DNA from: Pseudoselenomonas ruminantium
Lineage (GTDB): Bacteria > Bacillota > Negativicutes > Selenomonadales > Selenomonadaceae
Assembly (NCBI RefSeq): GCF_900113715.1
Contig: NZ_FOQK01000026.1
Location: 1-47,116, forward strand
Direction of reading: 5' to 3'
DNA: 47,116 nucleotides
The translations under genes were made by a program, and so were the position numbers. Positions 26,685-41,058 of the stretch are shown here, one piece after another (position 1 is the stretch's first letter; each line of letters starts with the position of its first letter). Below the pieces are notes generated by a model. That model saw only the letters and a list, made by a program, of their open reading frames with translations, had not been told where the DNA came from and did no database searches.

Positions 26685-26806
26685 TCGTATCGGACGGCAA
26701 GCAATCGCCTGCTTGCCAGATAAGGTGTCCATAGACACACACCGGAACGGGTTATTCAGGCCAGATAAGATCGCATTCTTATCTGGCCTTATTTTTTTTT
26801 CGAAAG
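26685..26806 (+). promoter_or_regulatory. Structured leader with terminator before the SMR gene (candidate riboswitch)
   Basis: The leader has an 8-bp hairpin GGCAAGCA/TGCTTGCC, a small GTGTC-CATA-GACAC hairpin, and an 11-bp terminator GGCCAGATAAG/CTTATCTGGCC followed by TTATTTTTTTT. GCCAGATAAG occurs twice, in the first hairpin's 3' side and in the terminator's 5' arm, so either copy could pair with the terminator's 3' arm. That allows two exclusive folds. I do not recognise the guanidine-I consensus. A ligand-sensing or attenuation role is inference. Confidence 0.55.
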
Positions 26807-26818
26807 GATTTTAAACAC

Positions 26819-27148
26819 ATGCTAAAAGGTTATCTTCTGCTCGCCATCGCTATCGCCCTGGAAATTGTTTCCACCTCTATGCTGAAAGCCTCCTGCGGTT
26901 TTACCAAACTAATGCCCAGCGTTGCTTTCATAGCGGGAATGGGAACCTGTTTCTACATTTTTTCCAAATCCTTGCTGCTGCTCCCCCTGGGCATTGCCTA
27001 TGCAATATGGGCTGGCGTCGGCACAGCTCTTACGGCGCTGGTGGCGGTATTTATCTGGCATGAACAGATGGACCTTACCACCGGCTTGGGCATCTTGTTC
27101 ATCATCATAGGAGTGATCCTGTTAAACATCCGCAGCATCACCAGTTGA
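26819..27148 (+). CDS. Small multidrug resistance (SMR) family efflux protein
   Basis: A 109-residue protein with four membrane helices. The first helix carries the essential glutamate in ALEIVSTSMLKAS, and GIAYAIWAGVGTALTALV is the EmrE/QacE block, as opposed to the Gdx guanidinium subtype. It works as an antiparallel dimer, exporting cationic drugs in exchange for protons. No SMR partner gene is adjacent, so it should be a homodimer. The mRNA begins with a leader containing a terminator. Confidence 0.9.
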   Translation: MLKGYLLLAIAIALEIVSTSMLKASCGFTKLMPSVAFIAGMGTCFYIFSKSLLLLPLGIAYAIWAGVGTALTALVAVFIWHEQMDLTTGLGILFIIIGVILLNIRSITS

Positions 27149-27299
27149 TAGCGGCACATCATCCCAGCCAGGACGCCCCATAGTGCCCTGAATCGGCAAC
27201 TCCCTAGACCTCGTCTCCCCGTGCTAAGTTCCCTTAAAGCAGCCTCTTCTTTTATTTCATATTCTCCCACCAGCACGCAAGGTTCTGTTTTTTCCCACG

Positions 27300-27474
27300 G
27301 GCCAGAACGGCCTTCCAGGAAGGTACCGAGGCAGCCCGCAAGGATATTTTAGTAGAGCAGCGTGCCCGCCTGCAGGAACAGCTGGAAACCTTGCAACCCA
27401 CCATTGAGCGGCTGGATTACAAGATTACCCATTACGATGAAATTCTCAAGTGCTCGGAAAAACTCAAATCTTAA
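27300..27474 (+). pseudogene. C-terminal remnant of a MerR-family regulator
   Basis: From about 27300 to the stop at 27472-27474 the plus strand reads FQEGTEAARKDILVEQRARL, then QEQLETLQPTIERLDYKITHY and a short tail. This is the dimerisation coiled coil typical of MerR-family regulators (…RLDYKI.YY). The N-terminal DNA-binding domain is missing, there is no start codon or ribosome site, and the upstream 150 bases carry no recognisable coding. A hairpin terminator follows at 27499. The subfamily resembles regulators of aldehyde/aldo-keto reductase genes. Confidence 0.7.
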
Positions 27475-27498
27475 TCCCCATATCCCCAAAATGCAGAA

Positions 27499-27538
27499 AA
27501 ATGGTGCCAACCGCAAAGTTAGCACCATTTTTCTTTTT
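27499..27538 (+). terminator. Terminator after the MerR remnant
   Basis: AAATGGTGCCAAC (27499-27511) pairs with GTTAGCACCATTT (27518-27530), followed by TTCTTTTT. Confidence 0.85.
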
Positions 27539-27635
27539 GCATCACTCAAAAGCCAGACCATCAAATCAGATTTTTACATCTTCTGCTGAAGCCTTGATTT
27601 CCTCACCGCCATTGCCCATGGCACAGCATATCTAA

Positions 27636-28040
27636 CTATTTCGGAAGTTTGGCCTGCTCCTCACGCAACCATTGAAGCCGCTGCTTCTCCCTGTTAATCG
27701 CCTGACGTAAAATCAGAGAATGACCATAGTGTTTCGCCTGTTCCGCTTCCCATGCGAACAGAGCTTCCCACCTCGACTCCAAATATTGCAGCTTTTCCTC
27801 GTGACGGGCTATTTCCTGAGCAAATAACTCCTTCACCAAAGGATTTCTGGCATCATTCAGTAAATACAGCTTCATGGAAAACTCATCTCTGGTTGGGGGC
27901 AGAGCATTTAAAGGCTCACTCAGCCAAGCCGATAATTCCTGTTCTCCTTGAGGCAGGATTTTATAGTAAGTTTTGGTCATTTTCTGTCCCACAGTATCCG
28001 CATGGGAAGCAATAAGGCCGCTACTTTGATGCCAGCTACA
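27636..28040 (-). pseudogene. PadR-family regulator lacking its DNA-binding domain
   Basis: The frame reads GLIASHADTVGQKMTKTYYK, then ILPQGEQELSAWLSEPLNAL, and ends in a long helical Vir_act_alpha_C-type domain (EEKLQYLESRWEALF). This is the end of the winged helix and the C-terminal dimerisation domain of PadR regulators. The first 50 or so residues with the recognition helix are absent: the frame runs directly into the 5' region of the divergent esterase gene. It is probably non-functional as a DNA binder. Confidence 0.7.
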
Positions 28041-28073
28041 ATCGCCTGAAAAAATAATATCGGAGGTAAGAGC

Positions 28074-28919
28074 ATGAAACTTTTTCAATTGAGAAAACTT
28101 ATTACCGCTTCACTGTTAACCATGGGGCTGATGACCATAGGCACGGGAGTCAGCCTTGCCCAAAGCAAGGATTTGAGCATTCAAGGTGACCATGGTAAAC
28201 TTTCCGCTATACTTCAGACTCCTGATGGAGCAAAGGATTACCCACTGGTGATTATCTGCCATGGTTTTACTTCTAACAAGGATACGGAGCTGATACATAC
28301 GCTTGCCAATAATTTAGAAAAGAATGGCATTGCCAGCCTCCGTTTTGACTTTAACGGCCATGGCAAAAGTGAAGGCCTCTTCCAGGACATGACGGTACTC
28401 AATGAAATCGAGGATGCTAAAAAGGTTTATGATTACGCTGCCAAACTCCCCCATGTGACATCCATTTCCCTGGCAGGCCATTCCCAAGGCGGCGTGGTGG
28501 CCAGCATGACTGCGGGTATTCTTGGCACCGAAAAAGTCAAAAGCCTGGCTCTAATGGCACCGGCAGCTGTACTGCGAGATGATGCCATTCGCGGGATTTG
28601 TATGAATGCTCATTATGACGCTAATAATCTCCCAGAAACTATTCCTCTCTATAACAACCTTCAACTAGGCAAAAATTATGTTCTGACCGCCCAGACGCTC
28701 CCAATCTACGAAACAGCAGTCAGGTACCAGGGGCCTGCCTTCATGATTCACGGCACTGGGGATGTCATCGTCCCCTACACTTACAGCCAGCGGTATCACA
28801 GAATTTATTTCAATGGCCAGCTAAAGCTTGTTCCCGGAGAAGACCATGGCTTTACCCATGATATCAAAGGTGCTTGCCAAGCAGTAACTGACTACTTTGT
28901 TACACAACTAAAAAAATAA
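28074..28919 (+). CDS. Exported alpha/beta hydrolase, cinnamoyl/feruloyl esterase-like
   Basis: A 281-residue protein with a signal peptide (ITASLLTMGLMTIGTGVSLA). The hydrolase motifs are ICHGFTSNKD (oxyanion loop), GHSQGGVVASM (nucleophile serine), HGTGDVIVPY (aspartate) and GEDHGFTHD (histidine). The set and length match the rumen/lactobacillus cinnamoyl esterases (Est1E, LJ0536) that release ferulate from plant cell wall. Substrate is inferred by motif similarity. CGGAGG lies before the ATG. Codon use is more A/T-rich than in the mannan or pst genes, suggesting acquisition. Confidence 0.82.
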   Translation: MKLFQLRKLITASLLTMGLMTIGTGVSLAQSKDLSIQGDHGKLSAILQTPDGAKDYPLVIICHGFTSNKDTELIHTLANNLEKNGIASLRFDFNGHGKSEGLFQDMTVLNEIEDAKKVYDYAAKLPHVTSISLAGHSQGGVVASMTAGILGTEKVKSLALMAPAAVLRDDAIRGICMNAHYDANNLPETIPLYNNLQLGKNYVLTAQTLPIYETAVRYQGPAFMIHGTGDVIVPYTYSQRYHRIYFNGQLKLVPGEDHGFTHDIKGACQAVTDYFVTQLKK

Positions 28920-28981
28920 AACTACAATGGATACCTATTCAGATACCTTTTATATCATGCAAAAATAAATATTAATAAACA

Positions 28982-29013
28982 TGGGCTGATGCAAAGAATG
29001 CTTTGCATCAGCC
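28982..29013. terminator. Hairpin after the esterase gene
   Basis: GGGCTGATGCAAAG pairs with CTTTGCATCAGCCC, a perfect 14-bp stem. On the plus strand no U-tract follows; on the minus strand the downstream sequence is U-rich. The rest of 28920-29125 shows no gene. Confidence 0.6.
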
Positions 29014-29125
29014 CACTCATTATGCTTAGTTCTAAAAATGTGCCTGTATGTTCTGATTATCAAAATAAAATGGCGTAGACATATATCATTCCAGACGATG
29101 TGCCATATTATAAAACATCATTTTC

Positions 29126-29518
29126 TCAGGACTGACTGGTCAGCAATTTTCTGCCCCAATCAGACTGACTGTTCCGGTAGAGAAACAAGGCAAAGATACC
29201 GCTGAAGAGGCTGGCTATCGGCGGCATCAGCTCTCCGCCCTCATTCTGACTGAAAAGTTCTGCCATATACGGCCCGGCCAATTCCATAAAGAAGAACGCG
29301 GCCACTGCCATAACGAACGATGCCCAAAGGATGCGGCGGAAAATGGCCTTGAGCCGTGCCTTCTCCCCTGCCCCATGACAATAACTCAAGGCAGGCTGCA
29401 ATGAGTCACAAAGGCCGAAGTTCAGCATACCGATGATGCTGTCCACATACATGACGATGGCAAAGGCGGCCACCGCTGAAGTCCCGCCGCATTTGAGCAG
29501 GAAAAAATTCAGCATCAT
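29126..29518 (-). pseudogene. MATE-family transporter fragment
   Basis: The 130-residue frame contains NFFLLKCGGTSAVAAFAIVM, then GMLNFGLCDSLQPALSYCHG and AELFSQN, the second-half helices of a MATE exporter (usual length about 450). It ends in an unrelated tail after FLYRNSQSD and has no own ribosome site. Both N-terminal half and last helices are missing. The palindrome CTGACTGGTCAG (29132-29143) lies at its end. Confidence 0.7.
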
Positions 29519-29661: not shown

Positions 29662-29858
29662 GAGATACCGATGCACAAGAGCAGCATCCCCAGCACATCC
29701 TCGCCGATAGCCAGTCTTTCCCTTAGCAAGGGGACCAGTGGCGCCCAGGACGCTGCCCCGAAGCCGCCGATAAAGAACAATGCCCGCGTGGCGTGCTGCC
29801 GCATTTTCCCTGCTGCATACCGTTCTTTGACTTTTGACCGGTCCATTTTCTCGTTCAT
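29658..29858 (-). pseudogene. MFS transporter N-terminal fragment
   Basis: The frame starts at ATG 29858 with GAGG 8 bases upstream and reads MRQHATRALFFIGGFGAASW, then APLVPLLRERLAIGEDVLGM, the first helices of an MFS exporter. It stops after 66 residues at the join to the HAD fragment. Confidence 0.65.
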
Positions 29859-29941
29859 GCCATTGCCTCGTTTCGTTCAAATAGTTCCAGATAATCCCCT
29901 GCTAAAGCATGGCTGTCACGCCGATAGTCTTCGCAGCAGCC
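29855..29941 (-). pseudogene. Short C-terminal coding remnant coupled to the MFS start
   Basis: Between an in-frame TAA (29942-29944) and the TGA at 29855-29857 the minus strand reads CCEDYRRDSHALAGDYLELF and six more residues. Its stop overlaps the MFS ATG by four bases (ATGA), the usual sign of an operon, so this is probably the tail of a lost upstream gene. I do not recognise the family. Confidence 0.35.
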
Positions 29942-29997
29942 TTACTAGAAAGCCCCGTCTTTTAAAGCTGCGGGCAGGAAATAAATCTATATTATAA

Positions 29998-30027
29998 AAC
30001 CCTGACTGCATTTTTCAACAGTCAGGG
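29998..30027 (-). terminator. Terminator of the CMD-cupin/metallophosphoesterase transcript
   Basis: ACCCTGACTG pairs with CAGTCAGGGT around a 10-base loop; on the minus strand TTTTATAAT follows. Confidence 0.85.
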
Positions 30028-30033
30028 TCAGCG

Positions 30034-31314
30034 TTATTTTGCTTTTGTCACTTTCACCGTATCGATCACCTGTCCATCGGGCAGGAAACATTTGACCGTT
30101 ATCGCTTCGTCCGTCACCTGCATGGTAAGGTAATTGTCCGTTTCGGGCTGGGGCGCCACTACCTCATCCAGCTGATGGTCAATCCATAAGCCGGGATAAC
30201 GCACATTGCCGGCTACGCCCGTCAATATATAAAGAGGTCCCTTACTATCCCGCTTAAAGCTTTTGATATGTCCCCGGTTGCGGTAGGTATGCAGATGGGC
30301 AGTAAAGACAATATCAATGCCCAATTCATCAAACAGCGGCATGAAATTCCTGCCTAAATCCGAAATTCCTTCCTGCCGTTCCGGACGTTTGTGGATGCGG
30401 TATTGCAAGACATCCTTATGCACCAGCACGATTTTCCATTTCTTGCGGCTCCTGCCAGCATCTTCCCGCAGCCAGCTCAGCTGCTCTGCCATAAGGCCCG
30501 GCTTGAACGCCTCGGTTTCGTCCCACTGGCTGTTGAGCACCATGAAATGCACATCGCCATAGTCAAAGGAATAATAGTAGCGGGAAAAATCCCGGCTGTT
30601 GTTTTCCGGCACTACGAAATAATGAAGATAGGCCTCTGGCAGCCGCACCTTCCAATTCTGGTCATAGGTTTCATGATTGCCCATCAAGGGCACAAAGGGA
30701 ATGCGGTCAATCATGCCATTTACCCCATGGAACCAGGCCTGCCATTGCGTATGGTCTTCGCCATTGTCCACGATATCGCCCATATTGATAAAGAATGCCG
30801 CCTGCGGATTGCGCTGGGCAGCATTTTGCGCTAATGCCTCCCAATCGCTATAATCGCTGGACTGGGAATCGGGGAATAGCAGGCATTCAAAATCTCCTGT
30901 CCCCGCCGTATGCAACGTATGCCAGCCGCTGGCAGCCGTATCCGTCACCACACGGTACTCATAATCCGTATCGGCCTGCAGTTCCTGCAGGTTCGCCAGA
31001 TATTGATTGTTCTTCACGCCATCGTCAGTGAAGAAATCCTCCAGCGCAGGAACGAGCTGAGCCTCCGCCTGCCCCTTAACACGGTATTCGATGGCCGGAT
31101 TTACCAGGACATCCTCCGCCTGCCACATGATGGTCCGGCTATGGGCAGCATCGGCAGTGATAAGCTGCCGCAAAAACTGCGCATCCAAGTCCCCGGTCAG
31201 ATTGCGGACACTATTAGCCGCCTTGCGGTACCAGGTGCTCTTGGCGAAAAACATGCCACCCGCCAGCAGCGTCAAAGCCCCCAGTCCTCCCGCAATAAAA
31301 GTCCTTCTCTTCAT
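30034..31314 (-). CDS. Exported metallophosphoesterase, purple acid phosphatase-like
   Basis: A 426-residue protein with a twin-arginine-like signal (MKRRTFIAGGLGALTLLAGG). Residues 50-140 are a fibronectin-like domain as in purple acid phosphatases (SRTIMWQAED…YEYRVVTD). The calcineurin-like core follows with INMGDIVDNGEDHTQW (metal site), LMGNHETYDQNW, VLVHKDVLQYR and FTAHLHTYRNRGHI (metal histidines). It should cleave phosphate esters outside the cytoplasm. It lies 23 bases after the CMD-cupin gene in the same transcript. Confidence 0.88.
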   Translation of the reverse strand: MKRRTFIAGGLGALTLLAGGMFFAKSTWYRKAANSVRNLTGDLDAQFLRQLITADAAHSRTIMWQAEDVLVNPAIEYRVKGQAEAQLVPALEDFFTDDGVKNNQYLANLQELQADTDYEYRVVTDTAASGWHTLHTAGTGDFECLLFPDSQSSDYSDWEALAQNAAQRNPQAAFFINMGDIVDNGEDHTQWQAWFHGVNGMIDRIPFVPLMGNHETYDQNWKVRLPEAYLHYFVVPENNSRDFSRYYYSFDYGDVHFMVLNSQWDETEAFKPGLMAEQLSWLREDAGRSRKKWKIVLVHKDVLQYRIHKRPERQEGISDLGRNFMPLFDELGIDIVFTAHLHTYRNRGHIKSFKRDSKGPLYILTGVAGNVRYPGLWIDHQLDEVVAPQPETDNYLTMQVTDEAITVKCFLPDGQVIDTVKVTKAK

Positions 31315-31337
31315 CGGCTCCCTCTTTTCCTATAACT

Positions 31338-32225
31338 TTACGGCAGTTTGTTGTATTCCTGCGCCGCTACAGGTTCGCACCATTCGTTAGAAGTATTCTC
31401 GCCCGGCACTTCCACAGCGATATGCTGGAAAGCAGAATCCTTGGCCGCGCCATGCCAATGCTTGACATTCGCGGGGATATGCACGACATCGCCGGTCTTC
31501 AGTTCCTGCGCAGGCTTGCCCCATTCCTGATACCAGCCGCGTCCGGCCGTGACCAGGAGCATCTGCCCGCCGCCCTTGTCGGCATGATGGATATGCCAGT
31601 GATTGCGGCAGCCCGGCTCAAAGGTCACATTGCCGATGACCACCTGTTCCGTAGAAATCATATGGAGATAGCTCTTGCCGTCAAAATACTGGGCATAGTT
31701 GACATTTTCGCTGCCGACGGGGAACATGCTGGTTTCCTTGATGGCTTCCAAATCCATCGTATCGCTTCCTTTGCGCTCTGTATCCTTAGCTGCCGGTTCG
31801 TTATAGACCTCTTTTGCCAGATTGAAGGCAGCCCAGGCCTTGGGCCAGCCAGCATAGAAGCCCAGCTGGGTAATGACTTCTGCCATTTCCGCTTTGGTCA
31901 CACCATTCTTCTTTGCCGACTGCAGATGATATTTGAGTGAGCTGTCCACCATGCCGCTGGCCACCAAGGCCGAAACCGTCACGATACTGCGGTCATGCAA
32001 GGAGAGTATGTCATTTTTCGACCAAACCTCGCCAAAGAGGATATCGTCATTATAGCGGGCAAAATCGGGAGCAAACTCACCAAGCTGCTGCCGTCCTGCC
32101 GTCTGGGTTACTTTCACTGCGATACGTTTGTTGTTATTTGCCATTGCTGCTGCCTCCACCGTCAAAAAATTCGCTGACATAGCAGTTGCGGCTGCCAGCC
32201 CTGCCGCGATGATTCTTTTCTTCAT
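31338..32225 (-). CDS. Exported carboxymuconolactone decarboxylase-cupin fusion
   Basis: A 295-residue protein with signal peptide (IIAAGLAAATAMSANFLTVE). Residues 50-140 are a CMD domain (DILSLHDRSIVTVSALVA, then QLGFYAGWPKAW), without the AhpD CxxC pair. Residues 180-285 are a cupin with metal ligands NHWHIHHADKGGG, GRGWYQEWG, GDVVHIPANVKHWHG. Such CMD-cupin proteins accompany aldo/keto reductases in redox clusters; the reaction is unknown. It is preceded by a promoter with the 19-bp spacer and dyad typical of MerR activation. Confidence 0.88.
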   Translation of the reverse strand: MKKRIIAAGLAAATAMSANFLTVEAAAMANNNKRIAVKVTQTAGRQQLGEFAPDFARYNDDILFGEVWSKNDILSLHDRSIVTVSALVASGMVDSSLKYHLQSAKKNGVTKAEMAEVITQLGFYAGWPKAWAAFNLAKEVYNEPAAKDTERKGSDTMDLEAIKETSMFPVGSENVNYAQYFDGKSYLHMISTEQVVIGNVTFEPGCRNHWHIHHADKGGGQMLLVTAGRGWYQEWGKPAQELKTGDVVHIPANVKHWHGAAKDSAFQHIAVEVPGENTSNEWCEPVAAQEYNKLP

Positions 32226-32284
32226 CCTGGTCTCCTTTTCCTGCTTCTTTCACACATCAAGGAACTGTCCCTGACTTCCGTTCT

Positions 32285-32315
32285 AATCTAGCACTTGAAG
32301 CTTACTTCAAGTCAA
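32285..32315 (-). promoter_or_regulatory. MerR-type promoter of the CMD-cupin operon
   Basis: On the minus strand TTGACT (32310-32315), a 19-base spacer and TAGATT (32285-32290). The spacer region holds the dyad ACTTGAAGCTTACTTCAAGT (perfect 8-bp arms, 32293-32312 in plus-strand sense). A 19-bp spacer with a central dyad is diagnostic of MerR-family activation. Confidence 0.82.
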
Positions 32316-32364
32316 GCAAAAATTTCATCTGCTTTCATAACGCCGTTGTTCAGCTTCTTCTGCG

Positions 32365-33069
32365 TTATTTCCTGCTTCTGCCCAAAACGATTCCGCCCAG
32401 CACATAAAGTCCCAGCATCCCCGCCAGTAGCAGTACATAGATGCCACCCGGCTGATTGGCCGCCTCTGTCGCAAAGATGTGCTTCATCAGCAGCCGGTCG
32501 CCTGCGCGGTTCATGAACGAACCCCATACGCCAGCCACCAGCACAAAAGCGGCCAGTGTGCCAGCCAGCAGCCGTCCGGCCATTTTCGGCAATGACCAGT
32601 TTATGCGCTTCTGCCATTGTCTTTTCCAGCCTTGCCAATGCAGGCCCCAATGCAGGCCACTCAAGATCAGCAGCGCATACGGCAGCGAAACATGATATTG
32701 ATGCAGGGCAATGCTGCGCTGCACGGCCAGCGGCATCACATCTTTGAGCAGATAGTTGGAAATCCCCAGACCGGACAGGATAGTTACCAGCACCCCCAGG
32801 ATAAGCAAACCATCGATGACCGTTCCCAAAAGCCGCCCGAAGCTCCAGCATCCCTGCCGCAAATTCTTGAGCCAGCTGCGGTTCTGATACAAATGCAGCA
32901 GGACCAGCAGCAGCCAGGCCACGCCCAGGATTTCATGCAGCAGTTTGGGAATATAATGGAAACTCATCACCGCAATAAACACCACAGGCAGGCATGTTGT
33001 CACCACTAAGCGCCCCGGCACAGTCAATGCGCCTCTGCCGGTGACTTTCAAACACTCGCGTCTATTCAT
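32365..33069 (-). CDS. DUF4405 cytochrome b561-like membrane protein
   Basis: A 234-residue membrane protein with five to six helices. Histidines spaced for haem ligation occur in FHYIPKLLHEILG, LVLLHLYQNR, SIALHQYHVSLPYALLILSGLHWGLHW. This matches DUF4405-type proteins, thought to bind b haem and pass electrons across the membrane. The N-terminal MNRRECLKV is basic. It starts 54 bases after the aldo/keto reductase stop and is probably cotranscribed with it. Confidence 0.78.
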   Translation of the reverse strand: MNRRECLKVTGRGALTVPGRLVVTTCLPVVFIAVMSFHYIPKLLHEILGVAWLLLVLLHLYQNRSWLKNLRQGCWSFGRLLGTVIDGLLILGVLVTILSGLGISNYLLKDVMPLAVQRSIALHQYHVSLPYALLILSGLHWGLHWQGWKRQWQKRINWSLPKMAGRLLAGTLAAFVLVAGVWGSFMNRAGDRLLMKHIFATEAANQPGGIYVLLLAGMLGLYVLGGIVLGRSRK

Positions 33070-33122
33070 ATACACCACTTCCGTAACGAAAAGCTTTTCC
33101 CCTTCTCATATGCTGGATAAAC

Positions 33123-34166
33123 TCACTGCATCCCCTGGGGCGCATTTTTCATCCAGACCTGCTCTTTTTTATTGCCACTTTCTGTATTCTGTGCCATTAC
33201 CCCCACCAGCTTATGCGGGATATAGCATTCTTCCAGATAAGCAATATCTGCTTTTGCAAGCTCCAATTCTACCGCCTTGACCGCGCCATCGATATGATGG
33301 CGCTTGGTCGCCCCGGCCACCGGTGCCGTTACCTTCGTCAGCAGCCAGGCCAAAGCGATTTCCGTCATGGATACGCCATACGTATCGGCAAGCTCTGCCA
33401 CGCGCAGGATGATTTTTTCATCAGCTTCAGCCGTGCCATCGTATTTGAGCTTGGCATAACTATCCTCAGCAAGACGCTTGGACATTTCCCCGGGCCTTCT
33501 AGCCAGCCGGCCGCTGGCCAGCGCACTGTAAGGCGTCATGGCAATGTTGTCCTCGGCGCATAATTTTGCCATCTCCCGTTCTTCCTCGCGGAACAACAGA
33601 TTGTAATGGTTCTGCACCGACACAAACGGAGCAAAACCTTCCTTTGCCGCCAGCGCATTGGCCTTGGCCAGCTGATAGGCATAGCAGTTGGCAATGCCGA
33701 TATAGCGGACTTTGCCCTCCTTCACCTGCTGCGTAAGACCATCTAAGATATCATAAATATCGGTCTGATAATCCCACATATGGTAGATATACAGATCCAC
33801 ATAATCCATACCCAAATGCTGCAAACTCATATCCAGCTGTTTGGCAATATGTTCCTGACCGGTCACACCAGCTTTGATTTCCTGCGTACTGCGGGGCAGG
33901 AATTTTGTCGCGACCACCACCTCGTCCCGCGAGGCATAATCGCGCAGCGCTCTGCCCAGATATTCCTCGCTGGTGCCGTTCTGATAGGCAATGGCCGTAT
34001 CAAAGAAATTTATCCCCTGCGCCAAGGCATGCTTGATTATCTCCCGGGTGGCAGTTTCGTCCACCGTCCAGCTATGCTGTCCCGCAGCTGCATTGCCAAA
34101 ACCCATGCAGCCTAAGCAAATGCGGGATACTTCCAAATCCGTGTTACCGAGTTTCGTATATTGCAT
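33123..34166 (-). CDS. Aldo/keto reductase
   Basis: A 347-residue NADP(H)-dependent oxidoreductase. The catalytic tetrad is visible: aspartate and tyrosine in FFDTAIAYQNGTSEEYLG, lysine in VVVATKF, histidine in DLYIYHMWD. Cofactor-binding ends are MTPYSALASGRL and VAGATKRHHID. The start at ATG 34166 gives the standard MQYTKLGNTDLEVSRICLG; GGAGGG lies 10 bases upstream. A longer frame to 34376 runs through the promoter. A strong promoter with two similar dyads precedes it. Confidence 0.92.
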   Translation of the reverse strand: MQYTKLGNTDLEVSRICLGCMGFGNAAAGQHSWTVDETATREIIKHALAQGINFFDTAIAYQNGTSEEYLGRALRDYASRDEVVVATKFLPRSTQEIKAGVTGQEHIAKQLDMSLQHLGMDYVDLYIYHMWDYQTDIYDILDGLTQQVKEGKVRYIGIANCYAYQLAKANALAAKEGFAPFVSVQNHYNLLFREEEREMAKLCAEDNIAMTPYSALASGRLARRPGEMSKRLAEDSYAKLKYDGTAEADEKIILRVAELADTYGVSMTEIALAWLLTKVTAPVAGATKRHHIDGAVKAVELELAKADIAYLEECYIPHKLVGVMAQNTESGNKKEQVWMKNAPQGMQ

Positions 34167-34289
34167 TGCCACACACCCTCCAACGTTCCATGACTGAGCT
34201 CCTAAAGCACCGGCAGCAAGGATTTCCTCCCGCCGTACGGGCCTTTCCTCTGCAAAAATCCTAGGTAGCGGATTCCTGCCTGTGTAAAA

Positions 34290-34348
34290 TGACACTGTGT
34301 AACTTTTCTTGTTGCTTGTATTATATAAATAAAATGACACTATGTCAA
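34290..34348 (-). promoter_or_regulatory. Consensus promoter of the aldo/keto reductase with two operator-like dyads
   Basis: On the minus strand TTGACA (34343-34348), 17 bases and TATAAT (34320-34325). The plus-strand dyads TGACACTATGTCA (34335-34347, over the -35) and TGACACTGTGTAA (34290-34302, about 10-22 bases after the start) share 11 of 13 bases. This is the layout of a repressor bound at two sites. Confidence 0.7.
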
Positions 34349-34363
34349 TATTGTTGCCAAAAA

Positions 34364-34391
34364 ATTTGACCGTCATGTCTAACGGTCAAAT
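34364..34391 (-). terminator. Terminator of the DUF362 gene
   Basis: ATTTGACCGT (34364-34373) pairs with ACGGTCAAAT (34382-34391). TTTTTT follows on the minus strand. Confidence 0.85.
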
Positions 34392-34403
34392 CTTTGCTGC
34401 CCA

Positions 34404-35528
34404 TCAATTACCGTCCGGCACCCAGGTACCCTTGACGCCCTTTACCGCCTCGGCAGCCGTGATGACTTTGTCCCCATTATCAATATCAATCAGCTGATAG
34501 CGGTCATTGCCCATGCCCATTTTCTTCATATAGGTCAGCTGACGCATGCTATGGCGTGATTCCATGCGCTCCACCAGGTCATGCCTGCTTTCTTCGGGCA
34601 GCGCATAAACACAGTCGACACAGGCCTGGTCAGCGGCCAGGATATCGAGCGATGCCACAATGCCAATATCCGGCGTGACCACAGGCTGGGCCGAGGTTCC
34701 CGCACAGTCACAGTCCACACTCATATTGCGCATGACATTGATAAAGGCGATTTTATCCTTGAAGTGGCTGACTACAGCCTGCGTCGACTCAGTCATGCGC
34801 TCCATGAATTCCTCGTTATTGACGCCCCATTGGGAGCCCGAGTCCCCGGCATGAATCATCTTCTTGCCGATTTTGCCATCGGCGCAGCCAATGCCCAGAT
34901 TCTTATTGGAACCGCCAAAGCCGCCCATCGCATGGCCTTTGAAATGCGTCAGCGTCAGCAGCGAATCATATGCCAGCATATTCTTGCCCACGGACATCTC
35001 CGTAAACCACTTGCCGTTGGGCACCGGCAACATTGCTGTCCCCTCGGCATCCGTGATATCCACCGTGGTGAAAGCCGTCCAGCCATTGACCTGCAAAGTT
35101 TGCCGGTGTTTTTCTGTCGTATCGCGGCCTCCGCCATAATAGGTATTGGTCTCGATGATGGTGCCTGCCGGCAGACGCTTCTGCAAAAGTTCCTTTACCC
35201 AGGGGCGCGGAATGATATTCGGGCCCTGCGGCTCGCCGGTATGCAGCTTGATGGCCACTTTGCCGCCCAGATCTTTTTTGACGCGGTCATAGATTTGCAA
35301 AAGCCCTGCCGCTGACAAGTCACGGGTAAAGTAAACCACTGACTCTGCCCCCTGCCGTTCCTGATAGGGAACATAACGTTCACCGCCGGTACCGGCCACC
35401 TTTTGCTTCCCATCCGGCTTTTTTACTGCCGTATCGGCCGCCAATGTCGCACAGCCCGGCAGCGCTGCGAACGCCACGGCCATACCAGCCAGCTTCACAA
35501 AATTCCTGCGCGTCATGTTTCTCTTCAT
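34404..35528 (-). CDS. Tat-exported DUF362 lipoprotein
   Basis: A 374-residue protein. The N-terminus MTRRNFVKLAGMAVAF is a twin-arginine signal, and LPGCATLA a lipobox, so it should be a folded, cofactor-bearing lipoprotein. The DUF362 domain spans about residues 60-340: RDLSAAGLLQIYDRVKKDLG, KLHTGEPQGPNIIPRPWV, FKGHAMGGFGGSNKNLGIGC and DILAADQACVDCVYALPE, with VDCDCAG. The extra 2Fe/4Fe ferredoxin cysteines of some members are not obvious. The start at 35528 has GGGAGG. A MerR-type promoter drives it alone. Confidence 0.88.
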   Translation of the reverse strand: MKRNMTRRNFVKLAGMAVAFAALPGCATLAADTAVKKPDGKQKVAGTGGERYVPYQERQGAESVVYFTRDLSAAGLLQIYDRVKKDLGGKVAIKLHTGEPQGPNIIPRPWVKELLQKRLPAGTIIETNTYYGGGRDTTEKHRQTLQVNGWTAFTTVDITDAEGTAMLPVPNGKWFTEMSVGKNMLAYDSLLTLTHFKGHAMGGFGGSNKNLGIGCADGKIGKKMIHAGDSGSQWGVNNEEFMERMTESTQAVVSHFKDKIAFINVMRNMSVDCDCAGTSAQPVVTPDIGIVASLDILAADQACVDCVYALPEESRHDLVERMESRHSMRQLTYMKKMGMGNDRYQLIDIDNGDKVITAAEAVKGVKGTWVPDGN

Positions 35529-35591
35529 CACTTCATCCTCCCTGCTATATTCTACGGCTTTCTGCTCGATCATATGTATTCCCTTGTTTTT

Positions 35592-35622
35592 ACTCTACTA
35601 CTTAAAGCTTACTCCAAGTCAA
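35592..35622 (-). promoter_or_regulatory. MerR-type promoter of the DUF362 gene
   Basis: On the minus strand TTGACT (35617-35622), a 19-base spacer and TAGAGT (35592-35597). The dyad region ACTTAAAGCTTACTCCAAGT differs at two positions from that at 32293, so both promoters should respond to one MerR-family regulator. Confidence 0.8.
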
Positions 35623-35737
35623 GCCCTTCCCTATATTTTTATCCGCCAGTAATCCTGCACCATTTGCTTAAAATCCTAGCGACCGTAGAAATATTTCGCC
35701 ACACCGGAATCCGATACCTGCCGCCAAACAGCAAAAA

Positions 35738-35771
35738 GCGGTTCACAAACCCCAAAGAGTTTGCAAACCGC
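35738..35771 (-). terminator. Terminator of manA
   Basis: GCGGTTCACAAAC (35738-35750) pairs with GTTTGCAAACCGC (35759-35771) with two G-U pairs; on the minus strand TTTTTG follows. A second C/G-rich hairpin lies at about 35788-35812. Confidence 0.8.
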
Positions 35772-35822
35772 CTGTCAATAATTGCCGTCCCCACTTATGG
35801 AAATGGGGGCAGCTTATACGCG

Positions 35823-36788
35823 TTATAATTTGCTTAAAATAAACTCTGCCTGTCCCTGCAGCTGATATCTTCCCAAGCCAGCCGGCACAAAGACCGTCCT
35901 TCCTTTTGCCACTTTGAGAGACGCATCATTTACGGTAAGCGACAAAGTGCCATCCAGTACCGTCAGGCAATGGAAGGAATCCTCGCCAGCGCACATAGTG
36001 CTGTCTCCCTGCAGACTGCCATGATATACTTTGAAATACTTGCATTCCGCCAATAATCTGATATCCATATCCGGGAACAGGTCAATATCCACCGTATTTC
36101 CCGACACAGCCTGCGGCACTTCGAGCTTGGTTACCGCCAAAGCTTTATCGATATGCAATTGACGCGGCTTGCCATCTTTGCCTACGCGCCCATAGTCATA
36201 GACACGATACGTCAGGTTAGAGCTTTGCTGTACCTCATAGATCAGGATTCCACTGCCAATGGCATGCAGCGTACCTGCCTTGATGAAGAACACATCCCCT
36301 TTATGCACGGGGACTTTGTTGCAGACCTCCAGCAGCGTATTATCCGCAATGCGCTGCTCGAATTCTTCTTTGCTGATTTTCTGCTGAAAACCATAGATAA
36401 GGCTTGCATCGGGTTCTGCATCGACCACATACCACATTTCCGTCTTGCCCTGCTCGCCTTCTTCCCGCAGCGCATACTCATCGTCCGGATGAACCTGTAC
36501 CGACAAATCCCCCTTGGCATCGATGAATTTGATCAGCAGCGGGAAATAATCCCTATCCTGCGCCTTGCTTCCGAGCACAGCCTTCCCCGCCCCGGCCAGA
36601 AATGCCGCCAGGGTTTCGCCTTTATGCGCACCGCTATCGATTACGCTCAATCCTGCCTCATGGCAGGAAAGTTCCCAGCTTTCTGCCACGATATCCAAAT
36701 CGGATTCCTTGCCGTATTCGTTCTTCAAACGGTTGCCGCCCCAAAGATAATCCTTCAACGGTGCTTTTAAAAGCATAGGTTCCAACAT
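35823..36788 (-). CDS. manA: Mannose-6-phosphate isomerase, class I
   Basis: A 321-residue zinc-dependent cupin isomerase converting mannose-6-phosphate to fructose-6-phosphate. Seen: LKDYLWGGNRLKNEYGK at the N-terminus, WELSCHEAG, PLLIKFIDAKGDLSVQVHPDDEYA (zinc and active-site residues), GKTEMWYVVDAEP, KGDVFFIKAGTLHAIGSGILIYEVQQSSNLTYRVYDYGR. Length fits the short Bacillus type. It follows GntR1 by 30 bases. In this locus it would feed mannose units from mannan into glycolysis. Confidence 0.96.
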   Translation of the reverse strand: MLEPMLLKAPLKDYLWGGNRLKNEYGKESDLDIVAESWELSCHEAGLSVIDSGAHKGETLAAFLAGAGKAVLGSKAQDRDYFPLLIKFIDAKGDLSVQVHPDDEYALREEGEQGKTEMWYVVDAEPDASLIYGFQQKISKEEFEQRIADNTLLEVCNKVPVHKGDVFFIKAGTLHAIGSGILIYEVQQSSNLTYRVYDYGRVGKDGKPRQLHIDKALAVTKLEVPQAVSGNTVDIDLFPDMDIRLLAECKYFKVYHGSLQGDSTMCAGEDSFHCLTVLDGTLSLTVNDASLKVAKGRTVFVPAGLGRYQLQGQAEFILSKL

Positions 36789-36818
36789 CAATACATCACT
36801 CCATTTTCTAAATTACCT

Positions 36819-37529
36819 TCAACGAATGCTCACCGAACGGAAATTGCTATAATCGCCACGATGGCGGGCAATCGAATACTCAAATGGGCGGCCATCATCC
36901 AAAAAGGCCACCTGTGTGACTTCCAGCAGCGGCAGTACGCCTTCTATCTGCAGCTGCTCGCGTTCTTCATCCGTAGGCATTACAGCGCGCACTGTGCGAT
37001 GCGCCGATTGAATCTTATAGCCCAAATCCTTCTCGATATAACTGTAAATCGATTTTTCCAGCGTCTGCCGCTTGAGGCCTGCAATCAGCTGGATCGGCAT
37101 CTGTGTGTATTCCACCACCACAGGCCGGTCATCCAGCAATCTCACTCGGATAATATCATAGACAAAATCATCCACAGCCAATTGCAGTTTAGCTGCCACC
37201 TCAGCCGTAGGATGGATGATCTCGAATCGCAAGATTTTCGAAGCGACCTTGCGGCCCTTGAACGTCGCCGCGAAACCAGAAAACTGGTTTGCCATGCTCA
37301 GTTCTTTCACATCTTCGTCCTTGAGCGATTTTACAAAAGTTCCCGACCCGCGCCGTTTGACTACCAGTCCCTGTTTAACCAATTCATCGACAGCCCGTTT
37401 TATCGTTATGCGGCTAACGCCATATTGCTGGCACATTTCTTTTTCCAGTGCCAGCTGCTCCCCTGGAGTATATTTGCCTTGTTGTATATCCTCTCTAAGT
37501 TCTCTGGCGATTGCCTCATACTTTAACAC
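36819..37529 (-). CDS. GntR-family regulator with UTRA domain (copy 1)
   Basis: A 236-residue regulator. The winged helix is residues 1-70 (ELREDIQQGKYTPGEQL, SRITIKRAVDELVKQGLVVKRRGSGTFV). The UTRA effector domain follows (about 90-230) with VYDIIRVRLLDDRPVVVEYTQMP and SAHRTVRAVMPTDEE, the type that binds sugar phosphates. The start is GTG at 37529, since AAGGAGG lies 9 bases upstream. It forms a unit with manA. It is a close paralogue of the regulator at 38999, with the same C-terminal RPFEYS-ARHRGD block. Confidence 0.92.
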   Translation of the reverse strand: MLKYEAIARELREDIQQGKYTPGEQLALEKEMCQQYGVSRITIKRAVDELVKQGLVVKRRGSGTFVKSLKDEDVKELSMANQFSGFAATFKGRKVASKILRFEIIHPTAEVAAKLQLAVDDFVYDIIRVRLLDDRPVVVEYTQMPIQLIAGLKRQTLEKSIYSYIEKDLGYKIQSAHRTVRAVMPTDEEREQLQIEGVLPLLEVTQVAFLDDGRPFEYSIARHRGDYSNFRSVSIR

Positions 37530-37636
37530 GACTGCCGCCCTCCTTACTTCTATATGCATATATTATATAGCGAAATGCTTAAAAGTACAAACGAGCGCAG
37601 ATTCGCGGCTTGATTCAGATGTCCCATAATGAGTCA

Positions 37637-38983
37637 TCAAAAACTGAACAGCAAGTTTGTGAAATAGGCAGTACGATGTGCATTATTATCATACGCTTCA
37701 TTTATCGCTGTACCATTAAATAAATAACCCTGTATTTGGATATTTTTCGTGAAATGATACCAAAGACTGGCCTCAAAACCTTTGCGGCCTGGTTTTTCAC
37801 TGCCATTGACTACACTGCTCATAATAAGGGCATCCGATCCAAGATACCGGTAGCCTATAGAACCGCCGAATTTTTTATTTCCCCAGGGACTGCCATTATA
37901 TACCAGCTTAACATCGTAGGCTTTATTCTGATAATGCTGATTGCCATGCGAATAAAAACCGGTCATTTCCAAATTATCCGTCAGGCGCTGGCGTAAATTT
38001 ACGGCCACTATGCCCAAATGACTGTCACCATAGGCGACTGGTGAATGCAGATTATAGTAGCCTAAGCCTGCCATCGTATCCTTCGTAAAACGATGCTCTA
38101 CAGACACGCCCCAGACTCGCAGCTTTTGATCCTTGAAACCCGTTTCTGTGCCCCCCGCACCTGTGCCAACGTATTCAAAATCTCCGCAATCCCCATGACG
38201 GCGAAACGCATCGGACCAGACCGAGGACATATCCGATACCTTCTCATGCAGATTGCCACCATAGGCTTTTAGCGTACTTTTTCCCACCTGATAGTCTAGT
38301 TCCAGGCCTTTTGTTCTGGCATTGCCTACAACTCCATCCTGTAACCCAGGCGTAAACAGCCCCAGCGTAGCTGTCGTGCCCTTAACCAGCGGCCCTTTAG
38401 CATACAAGTGATAAATCATATTGGATACTTTTGCCTGGGAAGCTCCGTATGCATCCGAGAATTCTTTCTCACTGTTCCAGCCATCATTGCCTCCCCACTT
38501 CGTATCAATACCGGCATGAACATTCCACGTATCATTAACTGCCGCATCTACATTGAGGAACAATTCTTTTTCCCACCAAGTATGCTCATCACTGTTGCCT
38601 CTCATGGCTTTTTGGGCAAAAACGCCACTCCATTTTACCCGGTCTGCATTCCTTTCCAGATTGGCGACTTTAACCCCAAGATTCTCAAGTTCCGCACTAA
38701 ACTCTGCTGATAATTTCTCTAACAACATCTTATCCTTGCCACTGCTATTTTTTGCCCGGGCTCTTGCCACCATCTGCGCCATTTCATACCGGGTAATATT
38801 ACGGCTGCCCTGAAAGTCTTTATCGCCATAACCTTCAATGATACCATCTGCTGCCAACTGTGCTACAGCATCATAAGCCCAATGATCTGCCGGAACATCT
38901 GCGAAAGGATTGGCTGCCGCAAAACAGTTTACTGTCAATCCCATTCCTATGGCAAAAGCCGTTAAAAAACATTTTTCCTTCAT
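37637..38983 (-). CDS. SLH-domain outer-membrane porin (OmpM-like)
   Basis: A 448-residue protein. Signal peptide at 1-24 (…VNCFAAA); one SLH domain at about 25-75 (NPFADVPADHWAYDAVAQLA, ITRYEMAQMVARARA); a short coiled coil (LEKLSAEFSAELENLGVKVANLE); then a beta-barrel of about 330 residues ending in FTNLLFSF with terminal phenylalanine. In Negativicutes such proteins tether the outer membrane to peptidoglycan through the SLH domain and act as porins. Placed between the two regulators and next to mannanase, it probably admits manno-oligosaccharides. Confidence 0.92.
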   Translation of the reverse strand: MKEKCFLTAFAIGMGLTVNCFAAANPFADVPADHWAYDAVAQLAADGIIEGYGDKDFQGSRNITRYEMAQMVARARAKNSSGKDKMLLEKLSAEFSAELENLGVKVANLERNADRVKWSGVFAQKAMRGNSDEHTWWEKELFLNVDAAVNDTWNVHAGIDTKWGGNDGWNSEKEFSDAYGASQAKVSNMIYHLYAKGPLVKGTTATLGLFTPGLQDGVVGNARTKGLELDYQVGKSTLKAYGGNLHEKVSDMSSVWSDAFRRHGDCGDFEYVGTGAGGTETGFKDQKLRVWGVSVEHRFTKDTMAGLGYYNLHSPVAYGDSHLGIVAVNLRQRLTDNLEMTGFYSHGNQHYQNKAYDVKLVYNGSPWGNKKFGGSIGYRYLGSDALIMSSVVNGSEKPGRKGFEASLWYHFTKNIQIQGYLFNGTAINEAYDNNAHRTAYFTNLLFSF

Positions 38984-38998
38984 ATTATTTCTCCCCCA

Positions 38999-39718
38999 TT
39001 ATCTTACCGACACTGCCTTAAAATCCATCTTGTCACCCCGGTGGCGGGACAAGGAATATTCAAACGGACGGCCATCGGATAAGAATGCAGTCTGCTGTAC
39101 CTCCAATACTGGCATTTTTCCCGTTATGCCCAAAAGTTCCTGTTCCATCTCCGTAGGCATAACAGCTCTCACGGTACGATGCGCGAACTGGATATGCATC
39201 CCCAGAGTCCCTTCGATATAACGGTAAAGCGAATCTTTTAAATGCTTTTCCTTCAAGCCAGTAATGAGATCCATCGGCATCTGTGTGTATTCGATGACCA
39301 CCGGTTCGCCATCTGCACAACGCAGACGCTGGATATCGTAGACAAAATCATCCGGGGAGATTTTCAACTGCCCAGCCACTTCCACGTCAGGATGGATTAT
39401 CGCAAAGTGCAAGACCTCCGTATGTATCTTGTGCCCGGAATAATATTCCGAGAAGCCCCCGAATTGAGAAAACTTACTGCGTTTGCTTACGGCACTGTCG
39501 TCGACGGCCTTGACAAAAGTTCCTGCTCCCCGGCGCTTTACTACCAATCCATCACGAACCAGTTCATCTATCGCATGTTTGATGGTTATACGGCTGACGG
39601 CAAACTCGGTACACAAATCCTTTACCAGGGGCAGTTGACTGCCAGGCAGATAATCGCCCTTACGGATAGCTTCGCGGATTGTGTCAGCGATCTGCTGGTA
39701 TTTTGCCCCGCCGCTCAT
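38999..39718 (-). CDS. GntR-family regulator with UTRA domain (copy 2)
   Basis: A 239-residue regulator with winged helix (IREAIRKGDYLPGSQLPLV, SRITIKHAIDELVRDGLVVKRRGAGTFV) and UTRA domain (FVYDIQRLRCADGEPVVIEYTQMP, FAHRTVRAVMPTE). By eye about half its residues equal those of copy 1. Its start overlaps the mannanase stop by four bases (ATGA). The UTRA ligand may be a phosphorylated manno- or gluco-disaccharide made by the PTS; this is inference. Confidence 0.92.
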   Translation of the reverse strand: MSGGAKYQQIADTIREAIRKGDYLPGSQLPLVKDLCTEFAVSRITIKHAIDELVRDGLVVKRRGAGTFVKAVDDSAVSKRSKFSQFGGFSEYYSGHKIHTEVLHFAIIHPDVEVAGQLKISPDDFVYDIQRLRCADGEPVVIEYTQMPMDLITGLKEKHLKDSLYRYIEGTLGMHIQFAHRTVRAVMPTEMEQELLGITGKMPVLEVQQTAFLSDGRPFEYSLSRHRGDKMDFKAVSVR

Positions 39719-41058
39719 TTCACCGTACCTGCCTGCAATTTCTTATAGTCCGTATTGCCATCGGCAAAGATACTGGCCGGTTCGTTATAAAAGCTTGTAA
39801 ATTCATCTATCATCTCATGCCCGCGCTTATCATCCACCATGTAGGGCATAAAGAAATTATGTTCCTCTTTGTCAAAATTGGCCCATACCATATAATAAGC
39901 AGCCTTATGTTCCCGGCAGATTTTTCCGGCCTTGGAAAACCACTTTTTATCCACATTATCCCGTACAGCCAGACTGCCACCTCTGCGCACACCGGCTTCT
40001 GTAAGGGCAATGACTTTATGCCGCTCCTGCCCCAGTTTTTCCATAACCGCCAACGTTTGGGAAAGATTCTTATACCAGCTGCCGCTTTGATCATCATCAT
40101 AGCTATCCACACCGAATATATCCACATAATCATCGCCAGGATAACGGTCCAGATAAGCAGCCGCATCCGCAAAGGGGCCATTGGGCGAATACGCATAGAG
40201 GAAATTATGTACGCCTTTCACATCGCGCATATATTCTGCCGTATATTTCCACAATGCCAAGAAATCATTGCTGCTGATATTGCTGCCCCCCCACCAGAAC
40301 CAGCTTCCATTATGTTCATGCAGCGGGCGGAAAATCACTGGGATATGCTTATCCTGCAGACACAGCGCAAAGTTTGCCACCATATCCAGATAAGCACGAT
40401 AAACTTCATTGAGGTCTCCCCCCGGCAGAATCCTTTTTCCTACATCGCCGGTCAAGACATTAGGGCTATAGCCTTGAAAATCGTAAGCACCATTCACGCG
40501 CGGCTTTTTCGCTACGACCGCAAAATTCGGCATGTGCATCGATAAGGTGATGATTGCCCCCTGCTTGTCAGCATTTTCCGCAATCTCCACGAGTTTATCC
40601 GTATACGTCACACCAGCTGCCTTTTCTGCAGCCGTTACTTTCAACTCATCCCCCGTAAGCGATAACGAATCCATGCCCACGACACCCGCGATGCTGCCGG
40701 TCACATCCTTGCAGTCAGACTCGCTGCCGCTATCCACCCGAAACATCTTGTGGTGCGTGTCATTCTGATGGCCGTAGATGACTTTCCCTGCCTGCGGAAC
40801 AGCCAACAGATACCGATAGAGCCTGGCTGCCTCTGGCGTCAGCTGTTTATCCACCACCTTATTGGTAAGCGGAGCCAAATTTTCCACTTGCGCCACCGTC
40901 AGCGCTTCCTTTTGGGCTTTGCCATGATCTGGCAGCACGCTGCGCTGCACATACGCTTTATCCTGCGGATTATCCAGCACACTGGCGTGTCCCACACCGG
41001 CAAATACTGGCATGCTCAAGGACAAGCCGACCGCCAGCGCCAACAATCTTTTTTTCAT
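39715..41058 (-). CDS. Exported endo-beta-1,4-mannanase, GH26
   Basis: A 447-residue enzyme with signal peptide (LALAVGLSLSMPVFAGVGHA). The GH26 barrel begins near residue 80 (VIYGHQNDTHHKMFRVDSGSESD). The acid/base glutamate is in IFRPLHEHNGSWFWWGG and the nucleophile in VIALTEAGVRRGG; other conserved pieces are ITLSMHMPNF and YVDIFGVDSYDD. It cuts internal beta-1,4-mannosidic bonds in mannan or glucomannan. No carbohydrate-binding module is seen, so it is probably periplasmic or cell-attached. AAGGAG precedes ATG 41058. Confidence 0.92.
   Translation of the reverse strand: MKKRLLALAVGLSLSMPVFAGVGHASVLDNPQDKAYVQRSVLPDHGKAQKEALTVAQVENLAPLTNKVVDKQLTPEAARLYRYLLAVPQAGKVIYGHQNDTHHKMFRVDSGSESDCKDVTGSIAGVVGMDSLSLTGDELKVTAAEKAAGVTYTDKLVEIAENADKQGAIITLSMHMPNFAVVAKKPRVNGAYDFQGYSPNVLTGDVGKRILPGGDLNEVYRAYLDMVANFALCLQDKHIPVIFRPLHEHNGSWFWWGGSNISSNDFLALWKYTAEYMRDVKGVHNFLYAYSPNGPFADAAAYLDRYPGDDYVDIFGVDSYDDDQSGSWYKNLSQTLAVMEKLGQERHKVIALTEAGVRRGGSLAVRDNVDKKWFSKAGKICREHKAAYYMVWANFDKEEHNFFMPYMVDDKRGHEMIDEFTSFYNEPASIFADGNTDYKKLQAGTVK

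Follow-up and report, generated by a model that had tools for sequence, protein, structure and literature searches.

Activators of the MerR family bind between the -35 and -10 boxes of promoters with spacers of 19-20 base pairs (bp) and activate transcription by kinking the DNA, as outlined in PMC9909328. According to PMC4776306, Cys52 is conserved in the NmlR clade of this family (Cys54 in Haemophilus influenzae), and Bacillus subtilis AdhR controls adhA, yraC, which codes for a gamma-carboxymuconolactone decarboxylase (CMD), and yraA; a C52A strain is described there as lacking an adhA transcript with formaldehyde. We analysed a stretch of 47,116 nucleotides from Pseudoselenomonas ruminantium (contig NZ_FOQK01000026.1, hereafter the window), in which a CMD-cupin gene and a DUF362 gene are each preceded by a promoter-like site with a 19-bp spacer. 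We consider it very probable that both are operators and promoters of a MerR activator of NmlR/AdhR-like type, whose gene lies elsewhere in this genome, on contig C25. An earlier reading of the window (the sequence-only reading) had proposed MerR-type activation, and sequence comparison supports this interpretation.

The two window promoters share the layout TTGACT-N19-TAGANT, and the spacer of each holds a dyad (Table 1). They are identical at 26 of 31 positions, as against 19 for the runner-up 31-mer in the window, and the sequence confirms what the sequence-only reading had described, namely 19-bp spacers and near-identical central dyads with two changes between the 20-base cores. The dyad as sole evidence was rejected: site 1 is self-complementary at 16/20 positions and site 2 at just 12/20, and 29 of the 20-mers in the window reach at least 16/20. 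It is the likeness of the pair, together with a genome scan, that argues against chance. A scan of the whole genome (3.11 megabases in 52 contigs) with the pattern TTGACTTNRAGTNNNCTYNAAGTNNTARANT, allowing up to 3 mismatches and using the reversed pattern as control, revealed 7 sites and 0 for the control. One gapped pattern, which fits site 1 but not site 2, occurred a single time in the window and in none of 100 shuffles.

The open reading frames (ORFs) picked by script start 12-63 bases downstream of the 7 sites; for each site, the longest ORF with a start no more than 320 bases away was taken mechanically. The regulon, which the sequence-only reading had taken to be defined by two promoters, is in fact larger. 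One of the five sites outside the window lies in the promoter of a merR gene on C25, so that the intact regulator gene with the same site before it, for which the earlier reading had proposed a search, does exist in this genome, on another contig than the window; the refuting case of a genome without any MerR gene, which that reading had named, therefore does not apply. A site before the regulator's own gene is frequent in the MerR superfamily, though not universal.

The N-terminal MerR winged helix-turn-helix is present in the C25 protein (PF00376: 56.3 bits, cut-off 28.2; PF13411: 50.9 bits, cut-off 21.6). Its C-terminus is short and carries no metal or ligand domain, MerR and MerR_1 being the only Pfam families matched at E<=0.001. 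Comparison with NCBIfam gave nine matches in all, with NmlR (NF041849) as the best at 141.4 bits and CueR next at 51.6. Cys44 and Cys52 are invariant (11/11 sequences) when the protein is aligned with ten relatives (54-93% identity). The best matches among PDB sequences were 3gp4 (E 9.4e-29, residues 2-113), 5e01, 5d90, 5d8c and 3gpv; we take 5e01, 5d90 and 5d8c to be NmlR of H. influenzae. PMC5045206 names 3gpv as NmlR of Bacillus thuringiensis and 3gp4 as LMOf2365_2715 of Listeria.

A search of the whole genome with PF13411 revealed three matches, a 285-aa frame on C51, an 86-aa frame on C11 and the C25 protein (aa, amino acids), and none in the window, in agreement with the earlier statement that no intact MerR gene is found there. 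With three such proteins in one genome, and with DNA sites of MerR proteins that can look alike, the sites might belong to the C51 or the C11 frame. None of the 7 sites lies on either contig, one lies in the promoter of the C25 gene itself, and orthologues of that gene in 19 genomes of the genus have their own site at up to 2 mismatches; we therefore regard an assignment to C51 or C11 as very improbable.

All 22 Selenomonas genomes searched carry sites, 1-9 per genome at up to 1 mismatch (n=131 over whole genomes; reversed control 0). Ninety-three distinct sites of the 131 fall in the fetched loci, identical contexts being counted once. Within these loci we found 115 sites at up to 2 mismatches; since these come from fetched loci only and 131 are listed genome-wide, not all sites are classified. 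The first gene downstream, named from one or two scanned members of each cluster or on sight, was merR for 21 sites in 19 genomes, CMD-cupin or cupin for 15 in 15 (10 of 292-301 residues, and 5 of 139 residues that match the cupin half only), DXS-like for 13 in 11, flavodoxin for 12 in 12, phosphoesterase for 10 in 10, FMN reductase for 9 in 8, metallo-beta-lactamase (MBL)-fold for 8 in 8, DUF362 for 7 in 7 (the genome of the window included), alpha/beta hydrolase and DUF3737 for 5 in 5 each, aldo-keto reductase with a 4Fe-4S domain for 4 in 4 and cyclophilin-like for 2 in 2. Singletons were a DUF4405-like gene and an ATP-pyrophosphatase-like gene, both in G015 and both named by eye, the site of the latter being perhaps due to chance, and an aldo-keto reductase (G021); one of the 115 sites stands at a locus end without an ORF. 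The phosphoesterase has its own site in ten Selenomonas genomes, whereas in the window it stands behind the CMD-cupin gene. G014 has the orthologue with a degenerate merR promoter, TTGACT-N19-TACACT (by eye), which is missed at 2 mismatches. G017 and G013 each have a pair of merR genes from the same family, both with a promoter site.

Wherever it can be tested, the predicted promoter layout fits the MerR mechanism. The last base of the -10 box, which lies outside the scan pattern, is T in 115/115 sites. A search of the fetched Selenomonas loci with the dyad only found TTGAC at the expected offset in 89/179 cases, as against 2 at other tested offsets, and TANNNT at the 19-bp position in 90/179, with 14 at the next offset; about half is the expected ceiling of such a search, because a near-symmetric dyad makes a site often met twice. 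For comparison, 79 named merR loci from Firmicutes and others were drawn from the best 80 of 585, with one of two peptide patterns required. One of these patterns holds the Cys52 region, and the frequency of Cys52 in these loci was therefore left unused. The same positions held TTGAC in 59/124 and TANNNT in 58/124 cases, with a 20-bp spacer in 17; 84 sites were found at up to 2 mismatches (reversed 0), and 7, 22 and 39 of the 79 loci had a site no more than 250 bases upstream of merR at 0, 1 and 2 mismatches. In Pelosinus propionicus (L144:4705), a similar site precedes an iron-type alcohol dehydrogenase-like frame (named by eye) by 35 bases, which would fit an aldehyde-reducing role outside Selenomonas.

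The sites also occur together with the regulator. In the genomes of 60 relatives, sites at up to 1 mismatch were found in 39/44 genomes with a MerR match (E<=1e-12) and in 0/16 without one (Fisher p 1.4e-10, uncorrected for kinship). Restricted to close relatives of the regulator (E<=1e-30), the counts were 29/33 with and 10/27 without. Among the matches listed, a site in G052 faces a MerR gene of 29% identity at a distance of 45 bases, and G044 and G041 each have a site that lies within 50 bases upstream of a MerR gene of 34-35% identity and faces away from it; the operator may thus be common to more distant NmlR-like proteins. The dyads could alternatively be sites of a repressor or other activator outside the MerR family, with the long-spacer promoters as a coincidence, and the frequency of near-palindromes in the window agrees with this. 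The 19-bp spacing seen across the fetched Selenomonas loci and the co-occurrence with MerR are hard to explain in that way, and we judge it the least probable of the alternatives considered.

Several observations weigh against regulation of the sites by the C25 protein in response to electrophiles. With the -10 box left out of the pattern, the genome yielded 8 matches as against 4 for the reversed control. These 8 are 6 of the 7 sites, all with a -10 box at 19 bp, and two places with 3 mismatches that were taken as chance, C19:23954 and C31:59616, the latter inside a CheA-like frame (named by eye). C10:79361 (3 mismatches) was likewise taken as chance, the reversed pattern giving 2 in that case. 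For genomes outside the genus, the counts at E<=1e-30 are only 9/13 versus 8/25 (p 0.04). Five genomes have a related MerR and lack sites at up to 1 mismatch; in G029, G036, G045 and G051 this MerR is a close relative (E<=1e-30). Conversely, ten genomes without a close MerR relative (E<=1e-30) have sites. G009 and G020 carry 5 and 6 sites and no orthologue, which may be an assembly gap (these assemblies are 88% and 81% complete). In 40 of the 79 named merR loci, the 250 bases upstream of merR contain no site at up to 2 mismatches; a few of these loci have little upstream sequence. The C25 protein scores below the equivalog cut-off of NmlR (141.4 versus 175 bits), and the DXS-like, phosphoesterase, alpha/beta hydrolase and MBL-fold targets have no obvious redox role. 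Class III formaldehyde dehydrogenase (TIGR02818), the hallmark NmlR target, gave no match over the cut-off in the 22 genomes; weaker matches in 9/22 were none of them near a listed site, the best in this genome reaching 52.9 versus 543.95 bits. This makes an aldehyde trigger less secure. The model may miss AdhA-type enzymes, because a control search passed the cut-off in only 3/14 genomes; among the 14 non-merR gene clusters behind the fetched sites, a formaldehyde dehydrogenase (adhC/adhA) was not recognised.

In the mechanism that we propose, a MerR dimer would bind the spacer dyad, between the two promoter boxes, and because of the 19-bp spacer the promoter would stay weak until the regulator is activated, kinks the DNA and brings the boxes back into phase. 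The DNA-distortion step is taken over from established work on MerR, and the sites, their spacing, the site in the regulator's own promoter and the co-occurrence come from the present comparisons. The regulator would control seven transcription units, one of them its own gene; CMD-cupin, with the phosphoesterase, and DUF362 are among the other six. Thiol-reactive electrophiles or oxidants sensed through Cys52 are the likely trigger, in view of the conservation of this residue and of the reductases, flavodoxins and CMD protein among the targets. We infer that the C25 protein binds the sites, and likewise the inducer and the biological purpose. The main rival keeps MerR control and replaces the signal, which may come from the envelope or from a metabolite, Cys52 having a structural role. 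Several targets look exported or membrane-linked by eye (signal-like N-termini in CMD-cupin, DUF362, flavodoxin and phosphoesterase), others are a DXS-like enzyme and hydrolases, and the lack of a class III formaldehyde dehydrogenase above its cut-off points the same way. On the other side, responses to formaldehyde, methylglyoxal and thiol stress are reported for the nearest known relatives (PMC4776306, PMC9909328), and a CMD target is shared with AdhR as described in PMC4776306; we consider a non-redox signal unlikely, though well ahead of the other two alternatives. The preferred reading is that of a regulon probably responsive to electrophiles or oxidants, apparently a small gene set for chemical stress.

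Table 1. Positions of promoter sites, genes and other elements in the window and on contigs C25 and C8 of the same genome.
Feature	Position	Strand	Remarks
MerR-type promoter 1	window 32285-32315	-	site before CMD-cupin; -35 TTGACT 32310-32315, 19-bp spacer, -10 TAGATT 32285-32290
Dyad of promoter 1	window 32293-32312	-	ACTTGAAGCTTACTTCAAGT, inside spacer
MerR-type promoter 2	window 35592-35622	-	site before DUF362; -35 TTGACT 35617-35622, 19-bp spacer, -10 TAGAGT 35592-35597
Dyad of promoter 2	window 35600-35619	-	ACTTAAAGCTTACTCCAAGT, inside spacer
Site	C25:103073		before flavodoxin
Site	C25:105945-105975	-	in promoter of merR gene
Site	C25:109776		before alpha/beta hydrolase
Site	C25:111092		before NADPH-FMN reductase-like protein
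Site	C8:47257		before DXS-like enzyme, then flavodoxin and MBL-fold protein
merR gene	C25:105535-105906	-	124 residues, intact
CMD-cupin gene	window 31338-32225	-	first target, 295 aa, PF02627 and PF07883
Calcineurin-like phosphoesterase gene	window 30034-31314	-	426 aa, starts 24 bases after CMD-cupin
DUF362 gene	window 34404-35528	-	second target; ORF to 35573; twin-arginine-like N-terminus by eye
Aldo-keto reductase gene	window 33123-34166	-	between both targets; own consensus promoter with 17-bp spacer; start 34166 by eye
DUF4405-like membrane protein gene	window 32365-33078	-	downstream of aldo-keto reductase; sub-threshold Pfam match (18.4 versus 26.7 bits)
Pair of TGACACTRTGTMA boxes	window 34287-34347		45 bp apart, over aldo-keto reductase promoter
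Similar TGACAC-type pair	C25:100729-100786		before TetR gene (L012 about 2730-2787)
TetR gene	L012:2817-3443 (on C25)		its end 4.1 kilobases from the merR end
3' fragment of merR	window 27312-27475	+	roughly the last 50 codons; tblastn-type match

The phosphoesterase gene of the window is probably read from promoter 1 together with CMD-cupin. For DUF362, the ATG at 35528, with GGGAGG upstream, is by eye probably the start rather than 35573. The aldo-keto reductase gene seems to be under a different, TetR-type regulator. Its promoter, TTGACA-N17-TATAAT, has 12/12 matches, which is suggestive only, because the promoter scanner found 8 promoter-like sites versus 7.0 expected; this scanner allows spacers of 16-18 bp only and is blind to 19-bp sites. 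TGACAC-type boxes are present in 16/22 genomes of the genus, 66 in total, of which 56 form 28 close pairs (reversed control 0). The TGACAC circuit has what looks like an ordinary repressor-like layout, unlike the 19-bp sites, and appears to be separate from the MerR regulon. At one locus (L190, G021:C94), 308 bases separate a site from the aldo-keto reductase that follows it, with TGACAC boxes between them and no DUF362 frame chosen; DUF362 was possibly lost in G021. Elsewhere in the window, a 130-aa frame (29126-29518) with a MatE-family match (PF01554, profile positions 14-127 of 161) is apparently incomplete, and two similar GntR-like regulator frames (36819-37559 and 38999-39718) flank a porin-like frame (37637-38983), these last three being named by eye.

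The sequence-only reading had placed a MerR C-terminal remnant at 27300-27474. It is real as a tblastn-type match (68% to the C25 MerR over residues 70-116), although it matches no Pfam family. When the missing N-terminal part was sought in 26701-27600, the alignment scores were only 20-33; as no DNA-binding part was found, the remnant is not a working regulator. It is nearer to the merR lineage of G008 (41/46 residues) than to the genome's own MerR (32/45). The DNA of 27312-27720 is 99.0% identical to G001 and 98.0% to G013, and the hydrolase stretch that follows is 98.3% identical (28014-28979 in G013, 28141-29231 in G001). In both genomes a whole merR gene adjoins the same alpha/beta hydrolase. 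The last 127-base piece of the segment 27312-29231 is 93% identical to G013. Positions 29664-40273 of the window are 97.9% identical to G002, and stretches before 26531 show 82-98%. The simplest reading is that an exchange between Selenomonas lineages brought in a segment with the 3' end of merR only; a decayed local regulator was rejected in favour of such an exchanged segment, given its 98-99% identity to G001 and G013.

As a tentative proposal, which we hold to be possible though doubtful, an anaerobe branch of NmlR/AdhR-like regulators without formaldehyde dehydrogenase might command an exported and cytoplasmic set (CMD-cupin, DUF362, lipoprotein flavodoxins, FMN reductases, the DXS-like enzyme, phosphoesterase, MBL-fold and alpha/beta hydrolases, DUF3737) as a defence against electrophiles from plants or the host, e.g. 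quinones in the rumen, and be wired with the neighbouring TetR circuit that controls the aldo-keto reductase. A keyword search of open-access literature revealed no regulon of this content among the matches listed, and a text search for the motif gave nothing on the subject by title among the matches listed.

Compared with described systems, the C25 regulator, as a MerR-family protein and putative redox activator, resembles SoxR, and differs in that SoxR has a [2Fe-2S] cluster in its C-terminal loop (both SoxR features as given in PMC9909328) and no SoxR model is among its nine NCBIfam matches. The Listeria protein of 3gp4 is its best PDB sequence match, with Gln at the position of the Selenomonas Cys52. 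NmlR is alike in being the best NCBIfam match, in four of the five best PDB matches and in the short C-terminus; it differs in the score below the equivalog cut-off, and the H. influenzae targets adhC and estD named in PMC9909328 were not recognised at Selenomonas sites. AdhR (YraB) of B. subtilis is alike as a MerR protein with an essential Cys52 and a gamma-CMD target, and differs in also controlling adhA and yraA (PMC4776306), no alcohol-dehydrogenase gene being recognised behind the fetched Selenomonas sites. The CMD-cupin gene behind a site in 10 Selenomonas genomes is a CMD-family target, as is yraC with AdhR. The AdhR operator, CTTAAAG-N4-CTTTAAG, is close to the CTTGAAG-N4-CTTCAAG found here. 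The mechanism and the NmlR/AdhR-like kind of regulator are thus known, and the list of members is unfamiliar: it gives DUF362, DUF3737, CMD-cupin fusions, Flavodoxin_4 proteins and DXS-like enzymes a functional context, with one likely regulator genus-wide, and provides a candidate, testable sensor of chemical stress in rumen anaerobes.

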